DNA from: Arthrobacter sp. ERGS1:01
GTDB taxonomy: Bacteria; Actinomycetota; Actinomycetes; Actinomycetales; Micrococcaceae
DNA: 64,000 nucleotides
NCBI RefSeq assembly: GCF_001281315.1
Contig: NZ_CP012477.1
Location: 372,001 to 436,000, forward strand
Direction: 5' to 3'
Shown: positions 8,353 to 23,092 of the stretch, piece after piece
How the letters are laid out: each line of letters opens with the position of its first letter
How positions within the stretch are numbered: the first letter of the stretch is position 1
Program-made: the position numbers and the translations under genes
The notes under the pieces: model-generated
Told to the model about the DNA's origin: nothing
What the model saw: only the letters and a program-made list of their open reading frames with translations
Database searches by the model: none

Positions 8353-8412
8353 TGCCACCGTTCCCGCTTTTCGCCACCGGAATACAGGTGGCGAAAAGCG
8401 GGAACGGTGGCA
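8353..8412 (-). terminator. 26-bp perfect hairpin terminator of the leftward sugar operon
   Basis: Arms 8353-8378 and 8387-8412 pair perfectly over 26 bases with an eight-base loop. Read leftward, the stem is followed by ATTTTTCG, a proper U-tract. It lies 15 bases past the stop of the isomerase gene ending at 8428, so it terminates the operon that starts near 12.6 kb. Confidence 0.85.
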
Positions 8413-8427
8413 GAAACCCTCCCGTTG

Positions 8428-9429
8428 CTAGGCCTGGTTGCTGAAGGCGGCGTCGAAGGAGAGCTCGGACGGCGCGAAGTTGAACTTCTTCAGCGCCGCC
8501 AGGGCCTCGGGGGCGCCCTGCAGGCGGTCCATGCCGGCGTCTTCCCACTCGATCGAGATGGGGCCGTCGTAGCCGATCGCGGTCAGCGCGCGGAAGGATG
8601 ATTCCCACGGCACGTCGCCGCGTCCGGCGGAGACGAAGTCCCAGCCCCGGCGGGGGTCGCCCCAGGGCAGGTGCGAGCCCATGACCGTGTTGCGGCCCGT
8701 CATGCGCAGCTTCGTGTCCTTGCAGTCCACGTGGTAGATCCGGTCCTTGAAGTCCCAGATGAAGGAGACCGGGTCGATGCCCTGCCACATGAAGTGGGAG
8801 GGGTCCCAGTTCAGCCCGAACGCCTCGCGGTGGCCGATCGCCTCCAGCGTGCGCACCGTGGTCCAGTAGTCGTAGGCGATCTCGGAAGGGTGCACCTCGT
8901 GGGCGAAGCGGACACCGCATTCGTCAAAGGCGTCCAGGATCGGGTTCCAGCGGTCCGCGAAGTCCTGGTAGCCGGCGTCGATCATGGCGGCGGGGACGGG
9001 CGGGAACATGGCCACGTACTGCCAGATCGAGGAGCCGGTGAAGCCGACCACGGTCTTCACGCCCAGCGCCTGCGCCAACCGTGCCGTCAGTTTCATTTCC
9101 TCCGCCGCCCGCTGGCGCACCCCCTCCGGGTCCCCGTCGCCCCACACCTTGGAGCCAACAATCGCCTGGTGGCGGAAGTCGATCGGGTCATCGCACACGG
9201 CCTGGCCCTTGAGGTGGTTGGAGATGGCCCAGACCTTCAGCCCGTACCGCTCCAAAACGGCGAGCTTGCCGGCCACGTAGCCGGGCTCGTCCCAGCGCCA
9301 CGGGTCCAGGTGGTCGCCCGAACAGGCAATTTCCAGGCCGTCGTAGCCCCAATCGGCGGCCAGCCGGGCCACTTCCTCGAACGGGAGGTCGGCCCACTGG
9401 CCGGTGAACAGGGTGTACGGGCGGGTCAT
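8428..9429 (-). CDS. Sugar phosphate isomerase/epimerase (xylose isomerase-like TIM barrel)
   Basis: A 333-residue protein of the AP-endonuclease-2/xylose-isomerase-like TIM-barrel family. Visible metal-ligand strands are [23 protein letters not shown] and ISIEWEDAG. Family members isomerise or epimerise sugars, or act on keto-sugars and keto-glycosides (IolE, IolH and C-glycoside lyase relatives). It is the last gene of a four-gene leftward operon. Its ATG overlaps the stop of the upstream oxidoreductase by four bases (ATGA), with CAGGAG as SD inside the upstream gene. A keto-sugar substrate made by that oxidoreductase is inferred, not shown. Confidence 0.85.
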
Positions 9430-10706
9430 GAAAAACTCCTGGCGGGGGTGGCTGACGGGGAGGTGGATGTGGCGGGCTCAAGGGTTTCGGCGGTTTCGGC
9501 AGTTTCGACAGGCTCAACCACCGCTGTGGCGGGCCCGGTGGTTTCGACAGGCTCAACCACCGGGAGGGTGGCGCCGCCGGCTGCGGAGGATGCCTCGATG
9601 GCGGCCAGCACGCGCTGCACGCCCAGGCCCTCCTCGAACGACGGCGACGGGTTGGTGCCGTTCTCGATATGCAGCAGGAAGTCCCGGATTTGGTGGGTGA
9701 AGCTGTGCTCCCAACCAATCACGTGCCCCTGCGGCCACCAGCCTTCAATGTAGGGGTGTTCGGGCTCGGTGACAAGGATGCGCCTAAATCCCTGCACCTG
9801 GACGGGTTCGGTGCCGTTGAGGAAGTACAGTTCGTTGGGGTTTTCCAGGTTGAACGTCAGGGATCCGTCGGTGCCGTACACCTCAAGGCGCAGGGCGTTC
9901 TTTTGCCCGAGAGCCACGCGGGACACATCCACGTTGGCCACCGCGCCGCCGGCCAGGGACAGCGTGGCCCAGGCGGCGTCGTCTACCGTCACCGGCTCGG
10001 GACCCTCCGGTCCGGGACGAGCGGTGACGAAGGTGTGCAGGCGCCCGGAGACGTCCGTAACGGTGTCCCCGAGCAGGAACTGGACCTGGTCGACGGCGTG
10101 CGAGGCAATGTCGCCCAAGGCGCCCGAGCCCGCGGTTTCCTTGCGCAGCCGCCAGGTCATGGGTGCTTCCGCATCCACCAGCCAGTCCTGCAGGTAGGAG
10201 GCGCGGACCTGCCGGACGGTGCCGAGGCGGCCTTCGGCGATGAGCTCACGGGCCAGGGCCAAGGCCGGAACGCGGCGGTAGTTGAAACCCACCATCGAGC
10301 GGACGCCGGCGGCGCGGGCGGTCCGGGCCGCGGCCACCATGGCCTCGGATTCGGCGAGCGTGTTGGCCAGCGGCTTCTCCACGAGGACATGCTTGCCGGC
10401 GGCCAGGGCTGCCGTCGCAATCTCCGCGTGGAGCCAGCCGGGGGCGCAGATGTCGACAATGTCGATGTCGTCCCGGGTAATGACCTCCCGCCAATCCGTG
10501 GCCGATTCGCTCCAGCCGTACTTGCGCGCGGCCGCGGCGACGGCCGTTGCATCCCGGCCCACCAGGACCTTTTGCTCAAAGTCGGGCACGTCGAAGTGGT
10601 TGGCCACCGTGCGCCAGGCATTTGAATGCGCCTGGCCCATGAAGGCATAGCCGATCGCGGCGACGCCCAGCGGGCGGCGGGCGGCGGGGATGTGGGGGGA
10701 GGTCAT
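9426..10706 (-). CDS. Gfo/Idh/MocA-family sugar oxidoreductase with repeat-derived C-terminal extension
   Basis: A 426-residue NAD(P)-dependent dehydrogenase. It has an N-terminal Rossmann fold ([18 protein letters not shown]), the catalytic-region motif EKPLANT (about 110) and a C-terminal alpha/beta dimerisation domain. Such enzymes oxidise sugars or inositols, often at C3. The start at ATG 10706 has AGGAA seven bases upstream; the frame stays open further upstream but that extension is not family-like. The last roughly 45 residues are Pro/Glu/Thr-rich and contain VVEPVET twice, 13 residues apart. They are encoded by two copies of an intergenic-type repeat (9501-9561), so the tail looks like a late addition. 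Confidence 0.88.
9501..9561. repeat. Two tandem copies of the GTTTCGACAGGCTCAACCAC repeat inside a coding region
   Basis: GTTTCGACAGGCTCAACCAC starts at 9502 and again at 9541, a period of 39 bases (13 codons), so both copies read VVEPVET in the same frame. Related cores occur outside genes at 5792-5805 and 25155-25171. The same short repeat is known to be scattered through many actinobacterial genomes. Confidence 0.8.
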
Positions 10707-10716
10707 TGCGGGATTC

Positions 10717-11823
10717 CTAGAGGGTTGCTTCGGTGGGGTTCCAGTCCGAGGGCAGGGCCGGGGACGCCGGCGCCGTGCTTTCGACGGCGACAAACTCGCC
10801 GCTGTCCACGGATTCGGCAATCGAGACCATCGCATCGAGCACGTGGTACGCCAGTTCGCCGGGGACCCGGTGCGGGATGCCGGCACGGATGGAGCGGGCC
10901 ATGTCCAGCACGCCCATGCCGCGCCCGTTGGCGGGGCCCTCCGCCGCAACAGCGGTCCACTCGTCCTCGCCGGCCTTGCAGAACTTGATCTCGCCGTCGA
11001 AATTGTTCGGATCCGGCAGCGAGATGGTGCCTTCCGTGCCCGTGATCTCCACGAAACCCATGCGGGATTTGGGGGACTCGAAGCTGAACACGCTGTGCGA
11101 GGAAGCCCCGGACTCGAACTGGGCGATCGCGCTCACATGGGTGGGAACCTCGACGTCGAACACCTCGCCGGCCTTGGGACCGGAGCCGATGGTGCGGGTG
11201 GGGAAGGCGGTGGAGCCGACGGCGGCCACCTTGGCGATGGGGCCAAAGGTCTGTACGAGGGCGGTGAGGTAGTAGGGGGCCATGTCGAACAGCGGGCCGG
11301 CGCCCTGCTGGAACAGGAAGGCCGGGTTCGGGTGCCAAGACTCGGGGCCGGGGGACTGGAACATGGTCAGCGCGGTCAGCGGCGTGCCGATTTTGCCGGC
11401 GTCGATGAGGCGCCGGGCCGTCTGCAGGCCCGCACCCAGGAAGGTGTCCGGTGCGCAGCCAAGGCGCATGCCCGCGGCCGCCGCCTCCTTGAGCAGGCCC
11501 AGCCCGCTGTCCCGGTCCAGCGAGAACGGCTTTTCCGTCCAGACGTGCTTGCCGGCGCGGACTGCGGCCGTGGCAACCTCCACGTGTGCCGCGGGAATGG
11601 TCAGGTTGACCACGATTTCGACGTCGGGGTGGTTCAGCGCCGTGTCGACGCCGCCAAATGCCTCGATGCCGTACTCGGCCGCACGGGCGGCGGCGGCGTC
11701 CTCGAAGAGGTCCGCGACCACGAGGACCTTGACGTCCGGGAACGTGGTGAGGTTGTCCAGGTACTGCTTGCTGATGTTGCCGGCGCCAATGACGGCGACG
11801 CCCACGGGTCCGCTCTTGCTCAT
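10717..11823 (-). CDS. Gfo/Idh/MocA-family sugar oxidoreductase
   Basis: A 368-residue dehydrogenase with N-terminal NAD(P) motif VAVIGAGNISKQYLD and the catalytic-region motif TEKPFSLD near residue 100. The C-terminal half is the usual oxidoreductase beta-sheet domain. It is paralogous to the next gene in the operon, only ten bases away. The start at ATG 11823 is supported by GGAAAGG seven bases upstream; the frame is open further upstream but that stretch overlaps the preceding gene. It probably oxidises a sugar or sugar acid taken up by the importer at 15.4-18.6 kb. The substrate is unknown. Confidence 0.88.
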   Translation of the reverse strand: MSKSGPVGVAVIGAGNISKQYLDNLTTFPDVKVLVVADLFEDAAAARAAEYGIEAFGGVDTALNHPDVEIVVNLTIPAAHVEVATAAVRAGKHVWTEKPFSLDRDSGLGLLKEAAAAGMRLGCAPDTFLGAGLQTARRLIDAGKIGTPLTALTMFQSPGPESWHPNPAFLFQQGAGPLFDMAPYYLTALVQTFGPIAKVAAVGSTAFPTRTIGSGPKAGEVFDVEVPTHVSAIAQFESGASSHSVFSFESPKSRMGFVEITGTEGTISLPDPNNFDGEIKFCKAGEDEWTAVAAEGPANGRGMGVLDMARSIRAGIPHRVPGELAYHVLDAMVSIAESVDSGEFVAVESTAPASPALPSDWNPTEATL

Positions 11824-11827
11824 GGGA

Positions 11828-12562
11828 TCAGGCCTTTCCGGCGTTGAGGAACGCCAGGCTCTGGGAGATGCCGTCAAAGATGTCCCCGGCGTAGTCGTCA
11901 AACTCGACCACGCCGACTTCGAGGGACTTCGCCGCACCAATGACGTCCCAAATGGGTACCTCGCCCTGTCCGGCGGGAAGCTGGGCCTTCGTGTCGTTGG
12001 TCAGCGGGCCGTCCTTGATGTGGATGTACTTCACGCGCTCACCGAGGCTCGTGAGGATGTCGACGGCATTGGCGCCGCCCACGGACACCCAGTAGGTGTC
12101 CACTTCCAAGACCAGTTCCGGGTCCAGCAGCGTGTCGAGGTATTCAAGGGCCGTGGCGCCGTTGATGGTGGACTCCAGCTCCCAGGCGTGGTTGTGGTAG
12201 CCCACCCGGACGCCGTACTCGGCACCCTTCTTGGCTGCGGCGTTCAGGCCGGCCGCAATCTTCTCGACGTCCTCGGCGCTCTGCCACTGCTCTGCCGGGA
12301 TGAAGGGATCGATGACGGTGGTGATGCCCAGCTTGTTGGCGGCGGCAAAGATTTCATCCTGGTCGGCGCTCAGCAGCGGCGCATGGCCGGACGGTGCGGC
12401 AATGCCGTGCTCGCTCAAGGCCGCGTGCAGGGCGTCGGCCGTGGCCACGAAGTTGTAGGGCTCCACCTTGGTGAAGCCGAGTTCGGCCACGCGGGCAATG
12501 GTGCCGGCCAGGTCCTCTTCCAGGGGCTTCCGGACCGTGTAAAGCTGCAGGGAATACGTCAT
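11828..12562 (-). CDS. Sugar phosphate isomerase/epimerase (TIM barrel), first gene of leftward operon
   Basis: A 244-residue protein of the xylose-isomerase-like TIM-barrel family. Metal-site strands include EVDTYWVSVGG, YIHIKDG and VEFDDYAG, and it opens with SLQLYTVRKPLEEDL, typical of this group. The start is ATG 12562 with AGGAG eight bases upstream; an upstream in-frame ATG lies too close to the predicted transcription start. It is the first gene of the operon 12562-8428. Its promoter at 12599-12637 is nearly identical to those of the importer and of the ThuA unit. It probably acts on the product of one of the Gfo/Idh/MocA enzymes. Confidence 0.87.
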   Translation of the reverse strand: MTYSLQLYTVRKPLEEDLAGTIARVAELGFTKVEPYNFVATADALHAALSEHGIAAPSGHAPLLSADQDEIFAAANKLGITTVIDPFIPAEQWQSAEDVEKIAAGLNAAAKKGAEYGVRVGYHNHAWELESTINGATALEYLDTLLDPELVLEVDTYWVSVGGANAVDILTSLGERVKYIHIKDGPLTNDTKAQLPAGQGEVPIWDVIGAAKSLEVGVVEFDDYAGDIFDGISQSLAFLNAGKA

Positions 12563-12598
12563 TGGGTTACTCCTGAAGGGTAAGAGCGGGTGTTTACT

Positions 12599-12637
12599 CA
12601 AAGCTAGGGGAACTTATGTCGATCGTCAAGCAAAAGT
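12599..12637 (-). promoter_or_regulatory. Regulon promoter A (leftward sugar operon)
   Basis: Read leftward it has ACTTTTG, -35 TTGACG (12629-12624), a 17-base spacer and -10 TAGCTT (12606-12601). That predicts a transcript start near 12594 and a leader of about 32 bases. TGACGATCGACA, an inverted repeat with one mismatch, overlaps the -35. By hand count 34 of 39 positions match promoter B at 15259. Confidence 0.75.
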
Positions 12638-12700
12638 GTATGAATTATTCCCAACTTGGCGCATTGTGACAGATAGAAGCCCGTGTGTTATTTATAGGGG

Positions 12701-13960
12701 ATGCCAAAGTCACCAATTCAGCCCCCGTCCGCACCCATAGTCGGCGCGGGTTCCGGCACGGGGACGCCGGCGCCGGGACCGGCCCCGGTCGGCACCTCGC
12801 GTGCGGGGGATGTCTTCCAGCTGCTGCGCGACGGCCACGCCCGCACACGCGCCGAACTGGCTGACATCACCGGCCTGGCCAGGTCCACCGTGGCGGCGCG
12901 CATCGACGCTCTCGCCGCCGCCGGCCTGATCGGCCCGGCAGGTGAGGCGGTCTCCTCAGGGGGGCGGCCGCCGTCGCGCTTCGCCTTCGCACCCACGTCC
13001 CGCGTTGTGTTGGCGGTCGACGTCGGCGCAACCCACGTGCTGGTGGGCCTGAGCGATCTGGGTGGCAAGGTCCTGTGTGAACTGCGCGAATCCATCGACA
13101 TCTCCGCCGGGCCCATTCCCGTGCTCGATGACATCCTGGCCCACTGCGAAGCCCTGCTGGTGCAGGCCGGCCGGCACGAACGCGAGCTGGTGGGCGTGGG
13201 GATCGGCCTGCCCGGACCCGTGGAGCACTCCAGCGGCAAGCCGGCCAGCCCGCCCATCATGCCCGGCTGGGACGGCTTTGACGTTCCCGCCTATGTGCAA
13301 AAGCGGTTCGCCACCGACGTCCTGGTGGACAATGACGTCAACATCATGGCGCTGGGGGAGCGGGCAATGTATTGGCCGGACGCGCAAAACCTGCTGTTCA
13401 TCAAGGTGGCCACGGGCATCGGCGCCGGCATCATCAGCGGCGGGCTGCTCCAGCGCGGGGCCGACGGCACTGCCGGGGATATTGGCCATGTGCGGGTGCC
13501 GCGCGGCGGGGACGTGCTGTGCCGCTGCGGCAATTTCGGATGCCTCGAAGCCATGGCGTCCGGCCCCGCGGTCGCTGCATCATTGCGGGCCGGCGGCGTT
13601 CCGGCAGCCACGGGAGACGACGTGCTGGAACTGGCCCGGCGCGGAAACCTGACCGCCATCGCGGCCATGCGCCAGGCCGGCCGCGACGTCGGCGATGTCC
13701 TGGCCGCGTGCGTCAACCTGCTCAACCCCTCCGTCATCGTCATTGGCGGCGGGCTGTCCTCGGCCGGCGAATACCTGCTGGCCGGCGTGCGTGAAATCGT
13801 CTACCAGCGCTCCCTGCCGCTGGCCACGGCCCGGCTGCGCATTGTGCAGTCCATGGCCGCGGACAAGGCCGGCGTCTATGGCGCCGCCCGCATGGTCATT
13901 GACCACGTCCTGGCCCCGTCCGGGGTGGAGCGCCTGGTGCTGGAGAGCCAGTCCTCGTGA
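12701..13960 (+). CDS. ROK-family transcriptional regulator
   Basis: A 419-residue regulator with an N-terminal winged helix (about 35-90: RAELADITGLARSTVAARI) and a C-terminal ROK sugar-kinase-like domain. The ROK zinc motif CRCGNFGCLEA and the glycine-rich ATP-like loop VDVGATHVLVG are visible. ROK repressors bind a sugar or sugar phosphate. It is divergent from the isomerase/oxidoreductase operon and overlaps the LacI gene by four bases. The ATG comes directly after GGGG with no SD spacing, while a -10-like TATTTA ends six bases upstream, so the gene may be translated from a leaderless mRNA. Confidence 0.9.
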   Translation: MPKSPIQPPSAPIVGAGSGTGTPAPGPAPVGTSRAGDVFQLLRDGHARTRAELADITGLARSTVAARIDALAAAGLIGPAGEAVSSGGRPPSRFAFAPTSRVVLAVDVGATHVLVGLSDLGGKVLCELRESIDISAGPIPVLDDILAHCEALLVQAGRHERELVGVGIGLPGPVEHSSGKPASPPIMPGWDGFDVPAYVQKRFATDVLVDNDVNIMALGERAMYWPDAQNLLFIKVATGIGAGIISGGLLQRGADGTAGDIGHVRVPRGGDVLCRCGNFGCLEAMASGPAVAASLRAGGVPAATGDDVLELARRGNLTAIAAMRQAGRDVGDVLAACVNLLNPSVIVIGGGLSSAGEYLLAGVREIVYQRSLPLATARLRIVQSMAADKAGVYGAARMVIDHVLAPSGVERLVLESQSS

Positions 13961-15039
13961 CCCAGGCAGGCGCGGATTCCGGCGGCAAGGTCACGATTGC
14001 GGGCCTGGCCGGGCGCCTTGGCATGTCCAAGGCGTCGGTCTCCTATGCGCTCAACGGCCAGCCGGGGGTCAGCGACGCGACGCGTGCCCGGGTGCTGGCC
14101 CTGGCCGCCGACCTTGGCTGGTACCCCAGTTCAAGCGCCCGGGCCCTCTCGCAGTCCCGCAGCGGGACCGTCGGGATCGTGCTCTCCCGGGAGGCGGAAG
14201 ATGTTGGGTCCGAGCCGTTCTACATGAACGTGCTGGCCGGCATTGAATCGGTCTTGAGCTCCCATGAAAGCAATCTTCTTTTGCGCATGGTGGCCCCGGG
14301 GGTGGGCGCGGGGCGTGACCTGGACGTCTATCTGCGCTGGGCAGGCGAACGCCGCGTGGACGGCGTGATCCTGTTTGACCATTTCCATGACGATCCGCGC
14401 CCGCCCCTCCTGGACTCGCTGCGGCTGCCCTATGTACGGCTGGGTGCCCCGGAGGACGCTGCCACCACGGCAAATTCCGGCAACACCACCGTGTCCCAGA
14501 GCGTTGACGCCGGCACGCTGGTGGAGGCCCTCCATGACCTGGGGCACCGCCATATCGCCTATGTTTCCGGCCCGTTGGCGCTCACCCACGAGACCGCCCG
14601 CAAGGCCGCGATCCTCGGACACGCCCGGAGGCTGGGCATGACCGCCGTGTCCACGCCGTCGGACTACACGGCCGACGACGGCGGCACCGCCACGATCGCC
14701 GTCGTCGCGGGGCTGGTGCCGGGGGCCGACGACTTCCCGACGGCCATCATCTTTGGCAACGACCTCATGGCCATGGGCGGCCTGGTTGCGCTCAAGCGGC
14801 TGGGCCTGAAGGTCCCGGGCCAGGTGTCGGTGCTGAGTTGGGACGATTCGATCCTGTGCCGCTTCAGTTCCCCGTCGGTGGCCGCCCTGGGCCGGGACAC
14901 CATGGATCTTGGCCGGCGCTCGGCTGCCCTGCTCCTGGAGATCATCGCCGGCCATGCCCCCGGGAACCGGCTGTCCCCGGCCGGTACGCTGCTGGCACGC
15001 GACAGCCTGGGGCCCGCCCCGGCCCGCGGCGTCGCATAA
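13957..15039 (+). CDS. LacI-family transcriptional regulator
   Basis: A 360-residue repressor with a LacI helix-turn-helix (about 12-60: VTIAGLAGRLGMSKASVSYALNG, shortened here) and a periplasmic-binding-protein-like effector domain (about 68-350). The GTG start overlaps the ROK gene stop (GTGA), so the two regulators are translationally coupled. The domain should bind a sugar or a derivative. Two kinds of nearby candidate operator exist: the palindrome CTGAACCGGTTCAG at 15101, which has classic LacI form with central CG, and the inverted repeats in promoters A, B and C. Which regulator uses which site is not decided by sequence. Confidence 0.92.
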   Translation: MTQAGADSGGKVTIAGLAGRLGMSKASVSYALNGQPGVSDATRARVLALAADLGWYPSSSARALSQSRSGTVGIVLSREAEDVGSEPFYMNVLAGIESVLSSHESNLLLRMVAPGVGAGRDLDVYLRWAGERRVDGVILFDHFHDDPRPPLLDSLRLPYVRLGAPEDAATTANSGNTTVSQSVDAGTLVEALHDLGHRHIAYVSGPLALTHETARKAAILGHARRLGMTAVSTPSDYTADDGGTATIAVVAGLVPGADDFPTAIIFGNDLMAMGGLVALKRLGLKVPGQVSVLSWDDSILCRFSSPSVAALGRDTMDLGRRSAALLLEIIAGHAPGNRLSPAGTLLARDSLGPAPARGVA

Positions 15040-15100
15040 CTCCCGGTAAGGGGTTTCCCGGCACCCAATTTCATAACAAGTCGGTAACATCGGCCCATTG

Positions 15101-15114
15101 CTGAACCGGTTCAG
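15101..15114. promoter_or_regulatory. Perfect 14-bp palindrome, candidate LacI-family operator
   Basis: CTGAACCGGTTCAG is self-complementary with a central CG step, the usual form of LacI-family operators. It lies 61 bases past the LacI gene stop and about 150 bases upstream of promoter B of the importer operon. It could act as an auxiliary operator. Confidence 0.5.
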
Positions 15115-15258
15115 TTAGACTCGTCACATTCAATACCCGTCATTTTGCCCCTGCTATTCGGCGTTTGTTTCCCGCCGGTGACCAGGGGCTCTCGGCATTG
15201 CCCTCCAGTGAAATTTGATCTGTTGGCGATACGTAAATAAGTCGAAAAATACTTACAG

Positions 15259-15295
15259 ACTTTTGATTGACGTTCGTCATAAGTTCGCCTAGGTT
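15259..15295 (+). promoter_or_regulatory. Regulon promoter B (sugar importer operon)
   Basis: ACTTTTG is followed by -35 TTGACG (15267-15272), a 17-base spacer and -10 TAGGTT (15290-15295). The perfect inverted repeat TGACGTTCGTCA (15268-15279) covers the -35. The predicted transcript start near 15303 gives a leader of about 80 bases before the GTG at 15384 and rules out the upstream in-frame ATG at 15267 as a start. Confidence 0.8.
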
Positions 15296-15383
15296 TGGTT
15301 TCACGTCGAGGTTCGGGATTGCCCGAACGCCACAAGACAGCACAATTCGGGTAGTTCATACCAACGACAAGGAAGTCACCGAA

Positions 15384-16691
15384 GTGAAAATTCGTACTTT
15401 TGCAGCAGCGGCGGCAATAGCGGCCTTAGCTCTCACGGCCACCGGCTGCGGCGGATCCAACGCAGGCTCCGGTTCAACCGACGGCGGCGGCAAGACACTC
15501 ACCTACTGGGCCAGCAACCAGGGCACCAGCCTGGACAACGACAAGGCGGTGCTCACGCCGCTGCTGACCAAGTTCCAGGAGGAGACCGGCATCAAGGTCA
15601 ACCTCGAGGTCATCGGCTGGAACGATCTGCAGACCCGCATCCAAACCGCCGTCACCTCCGGCCAGGCGCCGGACGTGCTGAACATCGGCAACACCTGGGC
15701 GGCCTCGCTGCAATCCACGGGCGCCTTCATGCCGTTCGATTCGGCAGCCTTTGATGCGATTGGCGGCAAGGACAAGTTCGTCAAGACTGCCATGGACACC
15801 GGCGGTGTAGCCGGCCAGGATCCCACCTCCGTCCCGCTGTACGGCCTGGCCTATGGCCTGTACTACAACAAGGCCATGTTCAAGGACGCCGGACTGACCC
15901 CGCCCACCACCTGGGAGGAAATGGCCGCCGACGCGAAGAAGCTCACCACGGGCGGCAAGTACGGATTCTCGCTGGCCGCGGGCAGCTACACGGAAAACTC
16001 CCACTTCGCCTTCATCAACGCCGCCCAGAACGGCGCCGACTTCTTCGACGCCGCCGGCAAGCCCACCTTCACCTCCGACGGCATCGTCGACGGGATCTCC
16101 CGCTACCTTGACCTGATGCAAAGCGACAAGGCCGTCAACCCGTCCAACGCCCAGTACGACAACGCCACCCAGGCCATCAACGACTTCGCCAACGGCAAGT
16201 CCGCGATGGTGCTCAGCCAGAACAACGCCGACAGCTCCATCGCCTCCCAGGGCATGAAGAACAGCGACTACGGCGTGGTGGCCTTCCCCGCCCCGAGCGG
16301 CGGCAAGCAGATCGCCACCATGGTGGCCGGCATCAACATGTCCATCTTCAAGAACACGAAGAACAAGGACGCCGCCCTCCAGTTCGTGAAGTTCATGACC
16401 AGCGAAGCCACCCAGGCAACCCTGGACAAGCCCTTCGCCGCACTCCCCGTGCTGGCCGGAGTCAACCCCAGCTTCACCGACAACACCGAAGAAGCCAAGA
16501 CCTTCGCCGACATCTACGCCAACAAGTCCAAGCCGCTGCCGCTCGTGGCCGCCGAGGACCAGTTTGAAAGCACCGTCGGCAAGGCCATGAACCAGATGTT
16601 CGCCACGATCGCCTCCGGCGGCACCGTCTCCAAGGCCGACGTCAAGGCCGCACTCACCACCGCCCAGCAGGAAGTAGAAGCAGCGGGCTAG
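15384..16691 (+). CDS. ABC sugar transporter substrate-binding lipoprotein (CUT1 type)
   Basis: A 435-residue extracytoplasmic solute-binding protein, family 1. It has a short signal peptide with lipobox LTATGC (Cys24 is the lipidation site) and then a Gly/Ser linker. The mature fold matches MalE-like proteins (LTYWASNQG, KFQEETGIKVN, YYNKAMFKDAG). It captures the sugar for the two permeases that follow. The start is GTG 15384, with AAGGAAG eight bases upstream; this gives a proper signal peptide and fits promoter B. It is the first gene of the importer operon. The ligand is probably an oligosaccharide or glycoside, not determined. Confidence 0.93.
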   Translation: MKIRTFAAAAAIAALALTATGCGGSNAGSGSTDGGGKTLTYWASNQGTSLDNDKAVLTPLLTKFQEETGIKVNLEVIGWNDLQTRIQTAVTSGQAPDVLNIGNTWAASLQSTGAFMPFDSAAFDAIGGKDKFVKTAMDTGGVAGQDPTSVPLYGLAYGLYYNKAMFKDAGLTPPTTWEEMAADAKKLTTGGKYGFSLAAGSYTENSHFAFINAAQNGADFFDAAGKPTFTSDGIVDGISRYLDLMQSDKAVNPSNAQYDNATQAINDFANGKSAMVLSQNNADSSIASQGMKNSDYGVVAFPAPSGGKQIATMVAGINMSIFKNTKNKDAALQFVKFMTSEATQATLDKPFAALPVLAGVNPSFTDNTEEAKTFADIYANKSKPLPLVAAEDQFESTVGKAMNQMFATIASGGTVSKADVKAALTTAQQEVEAAG

Positions 16692-16825
16692 TCCCCACGC
16701 CCTCCCCACGCGAATCCGCTGGCGCGGCTTCGCGTGGGGCCCCTCGGGCGCGTGGGCCCAACAACCGGATCCCACCATCTGCCCACTTCATACTTCATGT
16801 CTTCCCAGAAAGGTGAGTGTCCGCA

Positions 16826-17800
16826 GTGTCTGCAACCACCGCCACAAAGAAGTCCGGCCCCCCGGCAGGCGCATCCGGGGAAAAACCCCGCAAGGTTCGC
16901 CGCGCAGGGTGGTGGCTGCCCTACGCGCTCCTCGCCCCGGCCGTCGTCTTCGAACTAGTCATCCACGTCATCCCCATGGCCACCGGCATCTGGATGAGCT
17001 TCCTCAAGCTCACCAAAATGTTCATCGCCAACTGGGGCAACGCACCGTTTGTCGGCTTAAAGAACTACCAAATCGCCCTCGATTTCAACTCAGCCGTGGG
17101 CGGCGGGCTGCTAAAGTCCTTTGCCATCACCGCCGCGTTCACCATCCTCGTGGTGGGCATTTCCTGGGGACTCGGCATGGCCGCCGCCGTCGCCCTGCAA
17201 AAGACGTTCCGCGGCCGGGCCATCTTCCGCACCCTGTTCCTGATTCCGTACGCCCTGCCCATGTACGCCGGCGTCATCGCCTGGAAGTTCATGCTGCAAA
17301 AGGACACCGGCGCCCTCAACCACCTGCTCTATGACAATCTCGGAATGCCCGGGGACAAGCCGTTCTGGCTGATCGGCGACAACGCGTTCGCCTCCGTGGT
17401 CATCGTGGCCATCTGGCGCCTGTGGCCCTTCGCGTTCCTGATGCTGATGGCCGGCCTGCAGTCCATTCCCACCGACGTCTACGAGGCCTCGGCCGTGGAC
17501 GGCGCCAAGCCGATGCGCCAGTGGTGGGCCATCACGCTGCCCATGCTGCGCCCCGTCAACATGGTGCTGGTGCTCGTCATGTTCCTGTGGACCTTCAACG
17601 ACTTCAACACCCCGTTCGTCTTGTTCGGCGGCTCCCAACCCCCGGCCGGCGACCTGATCTCCTTCCATATCTATAACGCGTCGTTCCTGACCTGGAACTT
17701 TGGCTCCGGCGCGGCCATGTCCGTGCTCCTGCTGTTGTTCCTGTTGGTGGTCAGCGGCATCTACCTTCTCGTCATGAACCGGAGGAACCGCCGTGCATGA
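16826..17800 (+). CDS. ABC sugar transporter permease (MalF-like)
   Basis: About 324 residues with six or so transmembrane helices and the permease EAA loop (YEASAVDGAKPMRQWWAITLP) that docks on the ATPase. It belongs to the CUT1 sugar permeases. Two in-frame GTG codons compete for the start; the second (16826) has AAAGGTGAG at eight bases, while the first (16817) overlaps that SD. It overlaps the next permease gene by eight bases. No ATPase gene is nearby, so a shared MsiK/UgpC-type ATPase encoded elsewhere is expected, as is usual for actinobacterial CUT1 importers. Confidence 0.92.
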   Translation: MSATTATKKSGPPAGASGEKPRKVRRAGWWLPYALLAPAVVFELVIHVIPMATGIWMSFLKLTKMFIANWGNAPFVGLKNYQIALDFNSAVGGGLLKSFAITAAFTILVVGISWGLGMAAAVALQKTFRGRAIFRTLFLIPYALPMYAGVIAWKFMLQKDTGALNHLLYDNLGMPGDKPFWLIGDNAFASVVIVAIWRLWPFAFLMLMAGLQSIPTDVYEASAVDGAKPMRQWWAITLPMLRPVNMVLVLVMFLWTFNDFNTPFVLFGGSQPPAGDLISFHIYNASFLTWNFGSGAAMSVLLLLFLLVVSGIYLLVMNRRNRRA

Positions 17801-18632
17801 AACCAAGGGCACCAAACTCTTCAGGATCATCACCATCACCGTCCTGAGCATCTTCACCATCATCCCCGTTTACGTCATGGTGATTTCCGGCATGAAACCG
17901 CTCAAGGACGTGCAGGGGGCGTTCTCCTGGTGGCCCAGCACGCTGACGATCCAGCCGTACATCGACATGTGGAAGACCGTGCCGCTGGCCAGCTACTTCG
18001 TCAACTCGGTCGTTGTGTCCGGCGTGGCCACCGTGCTCTCGCTGATCATCGCGATCTTCGCCTCCTACGCGATCTCCCGTTACAGCTTCCGCGGCCGCGC
18101 GCTGTTCTCCACCACGGTGCTCTCAACACAGATGCTCCCGGGCGTCTTGTTCCTGCTGCCCTTGTTCCTGATCTTCGTGAACATCAACACGAACTTCGGC
18201 GTCCAGCTCGTGGGAACCCGGCTCGGCCTGATCATCACGTACCTGACGTTCTCGCTGCCGTTCTCCATCTGGATGCTGGCCGGCTACTTCGACGGCATCC
18301 CGCGGGAACTCGACGAGGCCGCGAAGGTGGACGGTTGCGGTCCCATGCGCGCCCTGATCCGGGTGATCCTGCCCGCCGCCCGTCCCGGCCTGGTCGCCGT
18401 CGCGATCTACAGTTTCATGACCAGTTGGGGCGAGGTCTTGTTCGCCTCCGTCATGACGACGGACGCCAACCGCACCCTGGCCGTTGGTTTGCAGCTGTAC
18501 TCGACGCAAACCAACGTGTACTGGAACCAGATCATGGCCGCCTCCGTGGTGGTCAGCATCCCCATCGTGATCGGCTTCCTGCTCCTGCAAAAGAACTTCG
18601 TAGCGGGGCTGACCGCCGGCGCCGTGAAGTAA
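17793..18632 (+). CDS. ABC sugar transporter permease (MalG-like)
   Basis: A 279-residue integral membrane protein and second permease subunit of the CUT1 importer, with an EAA loop near residue 175 (LDEAAKVDGCGPMRALIRVILP, typical spacing). The GTG start at 17793 lies inside the end of the upstream permease gene and has GGAGG just upstream, so the two are translationally coupled. An 18-base-pair hairpin follows at 18669, closing the importer operon. The next promoter (C) lies directly after it. Confidence 0.93.
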   Translation: MHETKGTKLFRIITITVLSIFTIIPVYVMVISGMKPLKDVQGAFSWWPSTLTIQPYIDMWKTVPLASYFVNSVVVSGVATVLSLIIAIFASYAISRYSFRGRALFSTTVLSTQMLPGVLFLLPLFLIFVNINTNFGVQLVGTRLGLIITYLTFSLPFSIWMLAGYFDGIPRELDEAAKVDGCGPMRALIRVILPAARPGLVAVAIYSFMTSWGEVLFASVMTTDANRTLAVGLQLYSTQTNVYWNQIMAASVVVSIPIVIGFLLLQKNFVAGLTAGAVK

Positions 18633-18668
18633 CCAGCTGAAGTAACAACGTGAAGTAACGACTCGAAC

Positions 18669-18708
18669 GATGCCCGCTTTTGCCGTAGTCACGGCAAAAG
18701 TGGGCATC
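18669..18708 (+). terminator. Hairpin terminator of the sugar importer operon
   Basis: Arms 18669-18686 and 18691-18708 pair over 18 bases with one G-U pair around a four-base loop, followed by ATTGTTTCGTTT. It separates the importer operon from promoter C. Confidence 0.8.
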
Positions 18709-18773
18709 ATTGTTTCGTTTGTAAGTCGGGAGATGCGGAAGGTCGCATGAACATTCGATGTGAAAATATGACA

Positions 18774-18810
18774 ACTTTTGATTGACCGCGATCAGAAGCT
18801 CCACTAGGTT
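18774..18810 (+). promoter_or_regulatory. Regulon promoter C (oxidoreductase-ThuA-propeller operon)
   Basis: It shares ACTTTTGATTGAC with promoter B: -35 TTGACC (18782-18787), 17-base spacer, -10 TAGGTT (18805-18810). About 29 of 39 positions match promoter B by hand count. TGACCGCGATCA is an inverted repeat with one mismatch over the -35. The predicted start near 18817 means the in-frame GTG at 18815 cannot be the translation start. Confidence 0.72.
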
Positions 18811-18880
18811 TTAAGTGCCGGTGGAAATCTTCCTCCGCCCGAAAATCCTCCCCGTTCACGACAAGATAAAGGTGTCCTCG

Positions 18881-19984
18881 TTGACCACTCCACTGATCCC
18901 TGCCCCGACAACCCTGAAAGTCGGCGTGGTGGGCGTCGGCTGGGCCGGCCAGCAACACATCAAGGCCTTTAGCAACGTCGACGGCGTCGAAGTGGTGGCC
19001 GTGGCCGGCATGGAGGCCGGGCTTTTGGCGCAGCTGCAAACCGAGTTCGGCATTCCGCACGGCTTTGCCCGGTGGGAGGAGCTGCTTGAACTGGAGGGCT
19101 TGGATGCCGTCAGCGTGGCGGTTCCCACCTTCCTGCACGCGCCCATCACGATTGCCGCCCTGGGACGCGGGCTGCATGTACTGAGCGAAAAGCCGCTGGC
19201 CCGCAACGGCGAGGAAGGCGCGGCCATGGTCGCCGCCGCCCGCGAGGCCGGCCGCGTACTGGATGTGGTCTTCAACCACCGCCGCCGCGGGGACGTCAAG
19301 AAGCTCAAGGCCATCATCGACGACGGCGAATTGGGCCGCCCCTACTACGCCAAGGCGTCCTGGCTGCGCCGGCGCGGCATCCCCACGCTGGGCAGCTGGT
19401 TCACCAATCCGGAGCTGGCCGGCGGCGGACCCCTTGCCGACATTGGCGTGCACGTCCTGGACTATGCGCTGCACCTTTTGGGTGAACCCAAGGTCGTCTC
19501 GGTCTCGGCGTCCACCTACTCCGAACTGGGCACCCAGGGCCGCGGCGGCGATGCCAACTACATTGCGGCCGCGTCCAACCACAAGTTTGAAGTGGAGGAC
19601 TTTGCCTCCGCCTTCATCCGGCTCGAAGGCGGCGTCACCCTGGTGGTGGAGGCCGGCTGGGCCAGCTACCGCGATCCCGCCGACCTCATGGACTTCCGGG
19701 TGTACGGGACCGAAGGCGGCGCAGAATTGCGGGCAGCGCATTCGCACCAGATTTCCGATTCGGGCCTGCGCGTCTTCACCGACAAGGGCCAGGCCAACGC
19801 CGACTACCTTGCCGAACCACTGGAGGACGGCAACCACCAGGCCGTGGTGGACGAATTCGTGGCGGCCGTGCGCGGCGGCGAGGACGTCTGGGGCCGCTAC
19901 GACGGCTCCGTGGCCCTGAGCCGGGCCCTGATCATTGACGCATGCTACAAATCCGCCCTCGAACAGCGCGAAGTGAGGCTCTGA
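18881..19984 (+). CDS. Gfo/Idh/MocA-family sugar oxidoreductase
   Basis: A 367-residue NAD(P)-dependent dehydrogenase and the third paralogue in the locus. The Rossmann motif VGVVGVGWAGQQHIKAF is at the N-terminus, SEKPLARNGEE lies near residue 100, and GGGPLADIGVHVLDYALH matches the usual catalytic Asp/His helix (about residue 180). I place the start at TTG 18881 because AAAGG lies eight bases upstream and the promoter excludes the longer frame; GTG 18872 is possible. It is first in an operon with ThuA and a propeller protein, and probably oxidises a sugar hydroxyl to a ketone. Confidence 0.88.
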   Translation: MTTPLIPAPTTLKVGVVGVGWAGQQHIKAFSNVDGVEVVAVAGMEAGLLAQLQTEFGIPHGFARWEELLELEGLDAVSVAVPTFLHAPITIAALGRGLHVLSEKPLARNGEEGAAMVAAAREAGRVLDVVFNHRRRGDVKKLKAIIDDGELGRPYYAKASWLRRRGIPTLGSWFTNPELAGGGPLADIGVHVLDYALHLLGEPKVVSVSASTYSELGTQGRGGDANYIAAASNHKFEVEDFASAFIRLEGGVTLVVEAGWASYRDPADLMDFRVYGTEGGAELRAAHSHQISDSGLRVFTDKGQANADYLAEPLEDGNHQAVVDEFVAAVRGGEDVWGRYDGSVALSRALIIDACYKSALEQREVRL

Positions 19985-19986
19985 CC

Positions 19987-20730
19987 ATGGCTGAAAAGCT
20001 GAACATCCTGGTGTGGAACGAAGGCGTCCATGAGCTCAGGAACGAACCGGCCACGATCGGTGACATGTACCCGAACGGCATGCACGGCGCCATCGCCGAG
20101 GCCTTGGGCGCCCACCACCCGGACGCCACCATCTCCACGGCCACGCTGGCCGATCCGGAGCACGGCCTGAGCGAGGAAACACTGGCCAACACCGACGTCC
20201 TGCTGTGGTGGGGGCACATCGCGCACGACGACGTCGCCGATGAAGTGGTGGAGCGGGTGCAGCGCCACGTCCTGGGCGGCATGGGCCTGGTGGCGCTCCA
20301 CTCGGCGCACTTCGCCAAGATCTTCACGAAGCTGCTGGGCACCACGTGCTCGTTGAAGTGGCGCAATGAGGGAGAACGCGAGCTGGTGTGGACGGTCAAG
20401 CCGTCGCACCCCATCGCGGCCGGCGTCGAAAGCCCCATCGTCATCCCCGAACAGGAGATGTACGGGGAGCTCTTCGACATTCCGGAACCCGACGACCTGA
20501 TCTTCATCAGCTCTTTTGCCGGGGGAGAGGTGTTCCGCTCCGGCGTGACGTTCTCGCGTGGGAAGGGCCGGATCTTCTACTTCAGCCCCGGCGACCAGGA
20601 GTACCCCGTGTACCACCACCCGCAGGTGCAGCGCGTGCTCGCCAACGGGGTGGGCTGGGTGGCCCAGCCCGGCCGGCACCGCGCCCAGCCCGTGGTGACG
20701 AACCCGGCCCGGGAATACTTCCCCAACTAG
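19987..20730 (+). CDS. ThuA-like (trehalose utilisation) domain protein
   Basis: A 247-residue ThuA-like protein with the class I glutamine-amidotransferase-like fold (ILVWNEGVHE, DVLLWWGHIAHDDV, GGMGLVALHSAHFAKIF, GKGRIFYFSPGDQEYP). Proteins of this family accompany sugar dehydrogenases in trehalose/maltitol-type catabolism in rhizobia and many 3-keto-sugar loci. The biochemical activity is poorly defined. It starts two bases after the upstream oxidoreductase gene, so co-transcription and probably a shared pathway are clear. ATG 19987 is chosen because the family begins there. Confidence 0.88.
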   Translation: MAEKLNILVWNEGVHELRNEPATIGDMYPNGMHGAIAEALGAHHPDATISTATLADPEHGLSEETLANTDVLLWWGHIAHDDVADEVVERVQRHVLGGMGLVALHSAHFAKIFTKLLGTTCSLKWRNEGERELVWTVKPSHPIAAGVESPIVIPEQEMYGELFDIPEPDDLIFISSFAGGEVFRSGVTFSRGKGRIFYFSPGDQEYPVYHHPQVQRVLANGVGWVAQPGRHRAQPVVTNPAREYFPN

Positions 20731-20745
20731 AAGAACGGCGGGCAC

Positions 20746-21672
20746 ATGGCACGGCAGTTGCGGGACGGCCAGCGGGCCGAACTTTGGGTGATAGATGTGG
20801 ACACAGCGGCGGCAACACTCCGGCTTAGCAGTGACACGCTGCTCTTCGAGGCGCCCAATTGGAGCCCGGACGGCGCTTCGTTGGTCCTCAACGGGGACGG
20901 CCGGCTGTTCCGCCTGGGCGTCGACGACGGCGATCTCGAGGAGATTGCCCTGGGTGGAGCCGGGGAGATCAACAATGACCACGTGATCAGCCCCGACGGG
21001 CGCACCGCCTACGTTTCCAGCGAGGACGGGCACATCCATGCCGTGCCCCTCGGCGGCTCGCTGGGCGACAGCTCCCAGGACGACGGCGGCGCCCGGCGCG
21101 TCACGAACGACCACGGCGGCGGATTCCGGCACTATCTGCACGGGGTCTCCCCGGACGGGCAGCTGCTGGCCTACATCGGGCTGTCCGTCGACGGTGCCGG
21201 GATGGTGCGGACCAACGTCCACACCATCCCGGCCGCCGGCGGTCCCGATGCCCAACTCACGGACGATTCTTTCCCCGACGACGGTGCCGAGTTTTCCCCC
21301 GACGGGCAGTGGATCTACTTCAACTCCGAACGCGGCTCCGCGGAACCGGGTCACGCACAGCTTTTTTGCCTGCCGGCCGGTGGCGGAACCCTCGAACAAC
21401 TGACCTTCGACGAGCGGGTGAACTGGTTCCCGCACCCCTCACCGGACGGAACCCGGATTGCCTACGTCAGCTTCCCGCCGGGCACGCTGGGGCACCCGGC
21501 GGACGTCGACGTCGTCGTGCGTGTGCTGGAGGCGGACGGGACCGTGCGGGATTTGGCCCACGTGTTTGGCGGCCAGGGCACCATGAACGTCCCCAGCTGG
21601 GACCCGACCGGGCGCCGGATTGCGATTGTCGCCTACCCTCTCCAAACGCTCCCGCCACTCGAAAGCTCGTGA
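20746..21672 (+). CDS. TolB/WD40-like beta-propeller protein
   Basis: A 308-residue protein made of repeated beta-propeller blades, each with an SPDG or DPTG turn (SPDGASLVLNGDG, SPDGRTAYVSSEDG, SPDGQLLAYIG, SPDGQWIYFNSERG, SPDGTRIAYVSF, DPTGRRIAIVAY). There is no signal peptide, so it appears cytoplasmic. Some relatives are oligogalacturonate- or sugar-binding propellers. Here it is the last gene of the ThuA operon, 15 bases downstream. The IS3 element sits 14 bases past its stop, so the reading frame is untouched. Confidence 0.8.
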   Translation: MARQLRDGQRAELWVIDVDTAAATLRLSSDTLLFEAPNWSPDGASLVLNGDGRLFRLGVDDGDLEEIALGGAGEINNDHVISPDGRTAYVSSEDGHIHAVPLGGSLGDSSQDDGGARRVTNDHGGGFRHYLHGVSPDGQLLAYIGLSVDGAGMVRTNVHTIPAAGGPDAQLTDDSFPDDGAEFSPDGQWIYFNSERGSAEPGHAQLFCLPAGGGTLEQLTFDERVNWFPHPSPDGTRIAYVSFPPGTLGHPADVDVVVRVLEADGTVRDLAHVFGGQGTMNVPSWDPTGRRIAIVAYPLQTLPPLESS

Positions 21673-21746: not shown

Positions 21747-22238
21747 ATGGATTCGCGGAGTTCGTTGAGTGCTCGGCAGCGGGTTGCTGCCATAGGGTTG
21801 TTCGAGGAAGGCTTCGGCTATGGTGCGGTTTCTTCTCGGCTGCAGGTCAGCAGGGATGCCTGTAAGCGCTTGGAGCAACGTTTCAAGATTTGGGGTAGGG
21901 CCGCTTTGGATAGACGACCGGCTGTGCCAGCGTATTCATTTGAGTTCAAGATCAAGGTGGTTCGTCAGTTCCTCGCTGCTGAAGCAACATCGACGGAACT
22001 GGCCCAGTTGTATCACTTGAGTTCGCCGAAACTCGTTCAAAGCTGGGTTCGGCGGTATCGCCAGGACGGTGAGGACGCTCTCAAGCCCCGGCCGAGGGGC
22101 CGCCCACACACCGCCGTGGACCAATTGCCTACCGAGGTTAGCGAGCTTGAGAAGCTGCGCCTTGAGAACCAGCGGTTGCAGGCCGAGAATGCCTACCTAA
22201 AAAAAGTACGGGCCCTGAGGAACCAACCACCGCGTTGA
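21747..22238 (+). CDS. IS3-family transposase OrfA
   Basis: A 163-residue DNA-binding protein with two helix-turn-helix units (about 10-45 and 65-110: STELAQLYHLSSPKLVQSWV) and a C-terminal leucine-zipper-like stretch (LEKLRLENQRLQAENAYL) used for multimerisation. The double HTH is typical of the IS150 group. A run of seven A (22199-22205) near its end allows -1 slippage into orfB. The SD GGGGAG lies six bases before the ATG but within the hairpin described above. Confidence 0.92.
   Translation: MDSRSSLSARQRVAAIGLFEEGFGYGAVSSRLQVSRDACKRLEQRFKIWGRAALDRRPAVPAYSFEFKIKVVRQFLAAEATSTELAQLYHLSSPKLVQSWVRRYRQDGEDALKPRPRGRPHTAVDQLPTEVSELEKLRLENQRLQAENAYLKKVRALRNQPPR
22199..22205 (+). other. Programmed -1 frameshift site (A7)
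   Basis: Seven consecutive A after AGAATGCCTACCT. In the orfA frame the codons read AAA AAA; a -1 slip continues AAA AAA AGT straight into the orfB frame with no stop, making the OrfAB transposase. IS3 elements use A-rich slippery sites of this form. Confidence 0.8.
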
Positions 22239-23092
22239 AGGTTAGCGCCGTGATCGCCCTCAGGGCCTCTCACCCCTTGCCCCTGCTCCTGGCCGCGGCC
22301 GGGCTGCCCCGCTCTACGTTCTTCCACCGCCAGGCCGCGCTCACGGCCCCTGACCGGCACGCAGAACTCCGTGCCCGGATCCACGAGGTCTTCACCGAGG
22401 CCAAGGGCCGCTACGGGCACCGACGCATCCATGCGTTCCTGCGCCGCCAGGGATGGCAGGTGGCGAAGAAGACCGTGTTAAAGCTGATGCGCGCCGAGAA
22501 TCTGGTCTGCAAGGTCCGCAGCAGTCGCCGCAGGTATTCCTCCTACAAGGGCCAGGTCGGCAAGATCGCTGAAAACCTACTCAAGCGCCAGTTCGTCACC
22601 GCGGCACCGAACCTGACGTGGGTGACCGATGTGACCGAGTTCAAGGTCGCGGACCGCAAGGTCTACCTCTCCCCGGTCATGGACCTGTTCGACCGCTCCG
22701 TGGTCTCCTTCGCGGTCTCCGAGTCGCCCAACACGGCCTTCACCAACCGATCGCTCAGCGAGGCGATCAGCACTCTGGGACCGGGTGAGGCACCAATGGT
22801 GCACTCGGACCAAGGATTCCAGTACCAACACGCCAGCTGGCAGAAGCTGCTCAGCAACGCCGGCATGACCCAATCGATGTCCCGCAAGGGCAATTGCCTG
22901 GATAACTCAGTGATGGAGAACTTCTTCGGACACTTAAAAGAAGAGATGTTCCACCACCAAGAACACACCAGCCCCGAAAGCTTCATCACTGAACTCGAGG
23001 ACTACATCCGCTGGTACAACAAAGACCGCATCTCGTTAACACTCGAGTGCCTGAGCCCGATGGAATACCGGGCCCAGGCACTCGCTACCTAG
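22235..23092 (+). CDS. IS3-family transposase OrfB (catalytic DDE domain)
   Basis: A 285-residue integrase-like domain in the -1 frame relative to orfA, overlapping it by four bases. The HTH_21 region (GRYGHRRIHAFLRRQG, 58-73) precedes the rve core. The catalytic triad is visible: Asp132 (WVTDVTEF), Asp192 (VHSDQGFQY) and Glu228 (NSVMENFFG), with 35 residues between the last two, the classic D(35)E spacing. The TTG at 22235 has no SD, so the main product is expected to be the frameshifted OrfAB fusion. No disabling mutation is seen; the element looks active. Confidence 0.93.
   Translation: MKVSAVIALRASHPLPLLLAAAGLPRSTFFHRQAALTAPDRHAELRARIHEVFTEAKGRYGHRRIHAFLRRQGWQVAKKTVLKLMRAENLVCKVRSSRRRYSSYKGQVGKIAENLLKRQFVTAAPNLTWVTDVTEFKVADRKVYLSPVMDLFDRSVVSFAVSESPNTAFTNRSLSEAISTLGPGEAPMVHSDQGFQYQHASWQKLLSNAGMTQSMSRKGNCLDNSVMENFFGHLKEEMFHHQEHTSPESFITELEDYIRWYNKDRISLTLECLSPMEYRAQALAT

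Follow-up and report, generated by a model that had tools for sequence, protein, structure and literature searches.

The question raised by this locus of Arthrobacter sp. ERGS1:01 is which regulator reads the sequence shared by the promoters of three neighbouring transcription units. The window, that is the whole stretch of 64,000 nucleotides that was analysed (contig NZ_CP012477.1, positions 372,001 to 436,000), belongs to a genome of 4.94 Mb in three contigs. Its genes are laid out as a leftward unit A, a pair of genes for a ROK-family and a LacI-family regulator, a rightward unit B and a rightward unit C. It is highly probable, judging from the sequences compared below, that they form a local sugar regulon in which the ROK protein would read a 26-bp dyad at A, B and C, and the LacI protein would read a palindrome of its own upstream of B.

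The shared promoter/operators and their dyad

The three sites and the predicted operators within them are the following.

12601..12637, minus strand: promoter/operator A, TTGACG-N17-TAGCTT, before iso1-gfo1-gfo2-iso2
15259..15295, plus strand: promoter/operator B, TTGACG-N17-TAGGTT
18774..18810, plus strand: promoter/operator C, 37-base site before unit C
12612..12637, minus strand: operator A (O_A), 26-bp dyad ACTTTTG-N12-CATAAGT overlapping the -35 box
15259..15284, plus strand: operator B (O_B), ROK-type dyad
18774..18799, plus strand: operator C (O_C1), weaker ROK-type dyad, 5/7 pairs by hand

The sites sit where an earlier note on this DNA had placed three promoters, and its hand counts of identity to promoter B, 34 and about 29 of 39 positions, are exact for A-B and B-C, respectively. 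The identity of A and C is 27/39, and all three sites agree at 25 of 37 positions. Their 60-bp flanks agree at merely 15–20 of 60 positions, and therefore the sites do not stem from a recent segmental duplication. The TTGAC and TAGnTT boxes proposed in the note are indeed shared, but its 17-base spacer is one base short, the true gap after TTGAC being 18. Searched with 17 bases after TTGAC and up to 3 mismatches, the window gives no match, and the whole genome holds two 3-mismatch matches, below the 6 of the control. Given 18 bases, the pattern matches the three sites of the window and nothing else there at 0 mismatches (mean of 0.02 in 100 dinucleotide shuffles, none of which gave three matches). 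Many copies in front of unrelated genes had been named beforehand as the sign of a general promoter type; the genome-wide search returned the three sites alone at 0–2 mismatches, and at 3 mismatches 4 further copies versus 5 for the reversed-pattern control. In 23 genomes of the genus 0–3 copies each are present at up to 1 mismatch, clustered within ~6.4 kb. The short pattern CTTTTGnTTGACSnnnSnnCA, with as many as 3 mismatches allowed, stays at noise level (252 matches versus 232 in the control). A consensus promoter scan listed none of the three promoters, and the terminator scan of the same program performed at chance level (10 found versus 10.9 in shuffles); neither is used as evidence.

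The earlier note also described an inverted repeat over the -35 box. This inner repeat, TGACG-TT-CGTCA, is intact in B with 5-bp arms and an unpaired TT centre, but the proposed centre is wrong: the best-kept dyad is ACTTTTG-N12-CAnAAGT, which is the predicted 26-bp operator common to the three units. In 70 unique A-type sites a centre between positions 13 and 14 of the 37-mer gives seven contiguous pairs at at least 80% (ACTTTTG with CAAAAGT), and any other tested centre gives at most 4. The same centre yields five contiguous pairs, the most of any centre, in 21 unique rightward sites, which are of B type and include site C of the window and that of locus L046. At least 6 of the 7 outer pairs are formed in 66/70 A-type and 15/21 rightward sites, and all seven in 48/70 A-type sites. 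For the inner repeat all 5 pairs are formed in 17/70 and 2/21 sites, and at least 4 of 5 in 52/70 and 12/21. The outer pattern is found at up to 1 mismatch in four places of the whole genome, namely A, B, C and 18676-18701. Its T-rich 5' arm, A-rich 3' arm and length of ~25 bp are those of a ROK-type site as characterized in the cited passages of PMC4856308.

Within the 37-mer, T32, A33 and T37 are invariant in 70/70 unique A sites. Position 8 is C in 67/70 A-type sites and A in all 21 rightward sites. A dyad-like match with 2 mismatches lies at 15396-15421, +137 of site B, where the signal peptide of the binding protein is encoded, and has 3 mismatches in five relatives; it was taken as chance.

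The two regulators and their candidate sites

12701..13960, plus strand: ROK-family regulator, predicted repressor of units A, B and C; matches Mlc structures
13957..15039, plus strand: LacI-family regulator, its start overlapping the ROK stop
12665..12703, plus strand: putative ROK promoter, TGTGAC-N18-TATTTA ending at the ATG, leaderless-like; conservation by eye
15101..15114, no strand assigned: predicted LacI operator, CTGAACCGGTTCAG, perfect palindrome with CG centre, between lacI and promoter B
15116..15121, plus strand: possible -10 of a distal unit B promoter, TAGACT, TAnnCT in most relatives; by eye

The ROK protein carries the domain PF00480 (194.1 bits versus a cut-off of 22.9) and an N-terminal winged helix, the mark of a regulator and not a kinase, which passes narrowly (HTH_24, a helix-turn-helix family, 24.2 bits versus a cut-off of 21.9, residues 42–77). 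From residue 262 it contains a motif of H...CxCGxxGCxE type, which we take to be the ROK zinc motif.

The presence of the site was compared with that of the regulators in a set of named loci, the best 80 of 441 candidates fetched with the ROK protein; this choice favours close relatives, which is partly corrected by a wider family sample. Apart from two, the titles of these loci name Arthrobacter, Paenarthrobacter, Pseudarthrobacter, Specibacter, Tersicoccus or Micrococcaceae. In all 80 loci a leftward site (0–4 mismatches) lies just upstream of the ROK gene, before the divergent operon, which in 79/80 of them has an iso1 relative leftward (the exception is L065); 19/80 have a type-B site as well. 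Of the 23 genus genomes, 19 have the site (up to 1 mismatch), and these are also the 19 with a ROK orthologue (64–100% identity); a LacI orthologue (63–100%) is present in 17 of them, in genome G012 as two matches. Among 395 family genomes the site (up to 2 mismatches) is found in 166, the ROK protein (E at most 1e-100) in 242 and both in 161, an association with a Fisher p of 3e-41, kinship ignored. Five family genomes have the site only, and in four of them a ROK match lies fragmented or shortened beside it.

The dyad reaches further than the -35 box. From the 81 family genomes with the ROK protein and without the strict pattern, 17 were picked among the best listed matches. All 17 have the dyad (0–2 mismatches) upstream of the ROK gene, none has TTGAC (by reading), and 14/17 differ from the full promoter/operator pattern at 6–7 positions. 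It is therefore the dyad, not the -35 box, that is kept.

Some of these loci deserve a separate remark. Loci L045 (titled Sporosarcina beigongshangi) and L057 (titled as a metagenome-assembled genome of Acidobacteria) carry an Arthrobacter-type locus, L057 agreeing in its two sites with genome G078 of the family, and their titles look wrong. In L051 (Specibacter cremeus, 7440-7500) promoter B stands directly before permease 2; neither lacI nor the genes for the binding protein and permease 1 were found in this locus. In genomes G199, G354, G355 and G362 the ROK match beside a retained operator is fragmented or shortened, which may reflect recent loss of the repressor or assembly errors.

The LacI regulator has both its helix-turn-helix (PF00356) and its ligand domain (PF13377) above the cut-offs. 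An adjacent lacI gene is present in 12/80 named loci, and the other 68 all have the site. A whole-genome LacI search in 28 of these 68 gave no match in 19 and just paralogues of 36–41% in 9. Since the site co-occurs with the ROK protein and persists where lacI is absent, ROK is the likely reader. LacI seems to be provided with a site of its own: CTGAACCGGTTCAG has no further copy in the genome even when 1 mismatch is allowed, and its core AACCGGTT is shared by 12/12 loci with lacI, versus 0/7 loci that have a B site and no lacI. The gaps of the latter are merely 75–206 bp, and lacI and its site are therefore missing as one piece. An even palindrome with a CG centre, occurring only together with lacI, fits the LacI family, whose sites are mostly of this kind and 16–22 bases long in the cited passages of PMC4052901; at 14 bp the present one is shorter. 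The TAnnCT following the palindrome could be the -10 of a distal unit B promoter.

The earlier note had stated that the shared promoter does not precede the ROK-LacI pair. This holds for the putative core promoter of the ROK gene, which seems to have TGTGAC-N18-TATTTA as its own promoter, but operator A is just 64 bp away from the start codon of ROK, in the common divergent gap. In the wider group, 21/61 loci have a dyad (up to 3 mismatches) 43 bases from operator A, over the ROK promoter, and 5 loci have it at 44, whereas no dyad is seen elsewhere between offsets -60 and -26. This suggests autoregulation of ROK in those loci; in the window such a dyad over the ROK promoter was not found.

From the sequences we infer the following course of binding, repression and ligand response, as well as the looping and the pathway treated below. 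The ROK protein would bind the 26-bp dyad over the -35 box of the three operons and block RNA polymerase, and a sugar-type ligand would release it. LacI would not read the shared dyad; it would bind CTGAACCGGTTCAG upstream of B and thereby add a second control on uptake. The single repressor that the earlier note envisaged for the three units is supported by the three genomic copies of the site, its co-occurrence with ROK and its persistence without lacI, strongly for A and B and more weakly for C. The note did not choose between ROK and LacI, and it mentions neither the LacI palindrome nor the second dyad at unit C.

Unit C and the alternatives

18676..18701, no strand assigned: second ROK-type dyad (O_C2), GCTTTTG-N12-CAAAAGT, 98 bp upstream of O_C1, within the terminator stem
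18669..18708, plus strand: hairpin, likely the unit B terminator, 18-bp stem, fold z-score -8.4

Site C is the weakest of the three, with a weight-matrix score of 35.5 versus 62.8 and 59.0 for the other two, and its proximal dyad forms (by hand) 5/7 pairs in the window and G001 and 4/7 in G011 and G016. It is accompanied by the second dyad, which has 1 mismatch in the window and recurs in these relatives at -96 (G011), -98 (G016) and -100 (G001) with 1, 2 and 1 mismatches, that is beside 4/4 C-type sites. Two predicted operators at near-constant distance, as expected of NagC-like looping, are thus present at unit C only (96–100 bp); allowing up to 3 mismatches, the window has no second dyad upstream of A or B. 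Since two sites and a DNA loop are required at most NagC operons, a loop at unit C is a fair inference: by analogy, the two dyads suggest NagC-like looping, by which the second dyad would probably make up for the weak proximal site.

Two other explanations of unit C have to be considered. Its site may be a decaying copy of a B-type promoter, with A and B alone controlled by ROK, as could be expected from the 4–5 of 7 pairs in the proximal dyad, from the small number of C-type sites and from the gfo3 relatives that lack one in 7 named loci. We regard this as unlikely, since every C-type site found has a second dyad at -96 to -100 and both C dyads of the window are among the sole four places in the genome at up to 1 mismatch. 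There is somewhat more to be said for the possibility, still a doubtful one, that the dyad at 18676-18701 is merely the stem of the unit B terminator resembling an operator, because it lies wholly within the 18-bp stem of the hairpin. Against this stand its recurrence at 96, 98 and 100 bp in three relatives, its separation from the longest stem in G016 (computed on L046) and from the likely stem in G001 (by eye), and a chance rate of ~0.03 matches per 420 bp at up to 2 mismatches, which is an overestimate as real sites were counted.

For the shared dyad as a whole, LacI has to be considered as the reader in place of ROK. Its gene lies in the same unit as that of ROK, the inner repeat intact in B looks LacI-like, and the inner pairs 10-21, 11-20 and 13-18 are frequent, in keeping with the 52/70 A sites that form at least four inner pairs. 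This assignment was nevertheless rejected and is very improbable: the site is kept in the 68 loci without adjacent lacI and in 28/28 genomes that were searched and have no lacI orthologue, the inner dyad forms in full in just 17/70 A sites, its centres in the three shared sites (by reading) are AT, TT and GC versus the CG norm of the cited passages of PMC4052901, and LacI has its own CG-centred palindrome, which comes and goes with lacI. Even less credible is a general promoter type, a sigma-factor signature with no regulon behind it. TTGAC and TAnnTT at constant spacing do look housekeeping, but three genomic copies at 0–2 mismatches and 0–3 clustered copies per genus genome are too rare for that, and in the 17 sampled distant genomes the dyad outlasts TTGAC; this explanation was rejected as well.

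Several observations weigh against control of all three units by ROK through the dyad. Part of the site conservation (TTGAC, TAnnTT) is that of a promoter, not of an operator. The outer dyad is imperfect in rightward sites, all seven pairs being formed in merely 1/21, and at up to 2 mismatches the outer pattern gives 43 genomic matches versus 68 in the control, i.e. not above it. Genome G007 bears a putative site, a single match at up to 2 mismatches, and its only ROK matches are paralogues of 30–40%. Because the loci are related and not independent, fewer evolutionary events underlie them than the counts suggest. Outside the window, C-type sites were found in three relatives only, before the same three genes, and 7 other named loci with a gfo3 relative have no dyad within 500 bp upstream (best 5–6 mismatches). 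Finally, RokB has five sites in its genome whose form is not that of the novH site, and the two described in the cited passages of PMC4856308 have no perfect inverted repeat; ROK sites therefore vary in form. The proposed ROK-controlled regulon appears solid, of a local and fairly ordinary type.

Enzymes, possible pathway and known systems

11828..12562, minus strand: iso1, PF01261 sugar isomerase-like TIM barrel
10717..11823, minus strand: gfo1, Gfo/Idh/MocA oxidoreductase
9426..10706, minus strand: gfo2, Gfo/Idh/MocA oxidoreductase, levoglucosan dehydrogenase relative below the family cut-off
8428..9429, minus strand: iso2, PF01261 protein similar to 2zds and to 2-hydroxy-3-keto-glucal hydratase (8ro4)
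15384..16691, plus strand: solute-binding protein of a sugar ABC (ATP-binding cassette) importer
16826..17800, plus strand: ABC permease 1
17793..18632, plus strand: ABC permease 2
18881..19984, plus strand: gfo3, Gfo/Idh/MocA oxidoreductase similar to DgpA
19987..20730, plus strand: ThuA-like protein
20746..21672, plus strand: PD40 beta-propeller protein

Unit A comprises two PF01261 proteins and two Gfo/Idh/MocA oxidoreductases, unit B a binding protein and two permeases without an ATPase gene, and unit C a Gfo/Idh/MocA oxidoreductase with a ThuA-like and a PD40 propeller protein. At the 3' end of unit A a long perfect inverted repeat, CCGTTCCCGCTTTTCGCCACC...GGTGGCGAAAAGCGGGAACGG, occupies 8358-8407 and is probably its terminator. 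Directly after unit C, at 21747-23092, two overlapping transposase frames are found (helix-turn-helix, then the integrase core PF00665), presumably an IS3-like element. No plasmid record covers 80% of 12562-18900; four records match, with 4–27% covered.

Two Gfo/Idh/MocA and two PF01261 genes in one predicted operon are the composition expected of a 3-keto-glycoside pathway. The iso2 protein is close to 2zds and related to 2-hydroxy-3-keto-glucal hydratase 8ro4 (1.5e-39); gfo3 matches DgpA; gfo2 matches 4h3v and 6a3f, the latter having the sequence of 6A3I, which is named levoglucosan dehydrogenase in the cited part of PMC10066097. The controlled genes thus resemble, in their sequences, a pathway of oxidation, elimination, hydration and reduction, an enzyme kit described for levoglucosan (PMC7676230) and phlorizin (PMC10628242) in the passages cited. 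The NCBIfam cut-off of 650 bits for levoglucosan dehydrogenase is not reached by gfo2 (316.7 bits, the best of the window), so the substrate is not fixed; it is probably another glycoside than levoglucosan. The locus L100 of the levoglucosan-growing strain LG01 was considered as a levoglucosan operon and set aside, as 0/5 tested proteins reach the cut-off (best 339.4 bits) and the loci are left unnamed in the cited passages, and no ligand is claimed.

Taken together, the locus may tentatively be regarded, with somewhat less than an even chance, as a two-input switch for a 3-keto-glycoside pathway. ROK would act on enzymes and importer through the dyad, with a ~98-bp loop at one promoter, and a removable LacI cassette with its own palindrome and distal promoter would add a second sugar signal to uptake alone. 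The lacI cassette illustrates how a second regulator is gained by, or lost from, a working regulon together with its own predicted site. The analysis provides a precise testable operator and a named candidate repressor for a sugar locus. Relatives of this ROK protein at E of at most 1e-100 are widespread in the sampled family genomes (242/395), and the adjoining enzymes resemble the recently described 3-keto-glycoside pathways; the ROK ligand, if found, should reveal what the operons consume.

A search of the PubMed Central (PMC) literature, with most subscription papers and the regulon databases outside it, gave no paper on this regulon among the matches listed. The closest systems are compared on the basis of the cited passages. 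RokB of Streptomyces coelicolor is likewise an actinobacterial ROK protein; at novH it binds TTTGTTC-11X-GAACAAA, with 7-bp arms 11 bp apart versus 7-bp arms 12 bp apart here, and other ROK sites are described with T-rich and A-rich ends (PMC4856308). It differs in the arm sequence, in its five own-genome sites with TVCVT centre and A-rich ends, and in its targets, which are tied to antibiotic and amino-acid genes (PMC4856308). NagC of E. coli, also a ROK repressor, uses two sites and looping in most known operons (PMC5401889), comparable to the two dyads ~98 bp apart at unit C; unlike there, a second dyad is absent at A and B of the window at up to 3 mismatches, and the sugars and operators differ. 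CsnR of Streptomyces lividans, a further ROK repressor, has a palindromic operator located within a promoter, but its palindrome at csnN106 overlaps the transcript start and its target is a chitosanase gene (PMC3048496). On the side of the enzymes, the levoglucosan lgd set shares with unit A two Gfo/Idh/MocA enzymes and two sugar-isomerase-like proteins (PMC7676230, PMC10066097), the difference being that gfo2 lies far under the levoglucosan dehydrogenase cut-off (316.7 versus 650 bits). Similarly, the 3-keto-glycoside operon of A. tumefaciens combines GlycDH and another oxidoreductase with two sugar-isomerase-like proteins (PMC10628242), the same pairing as in unit A.

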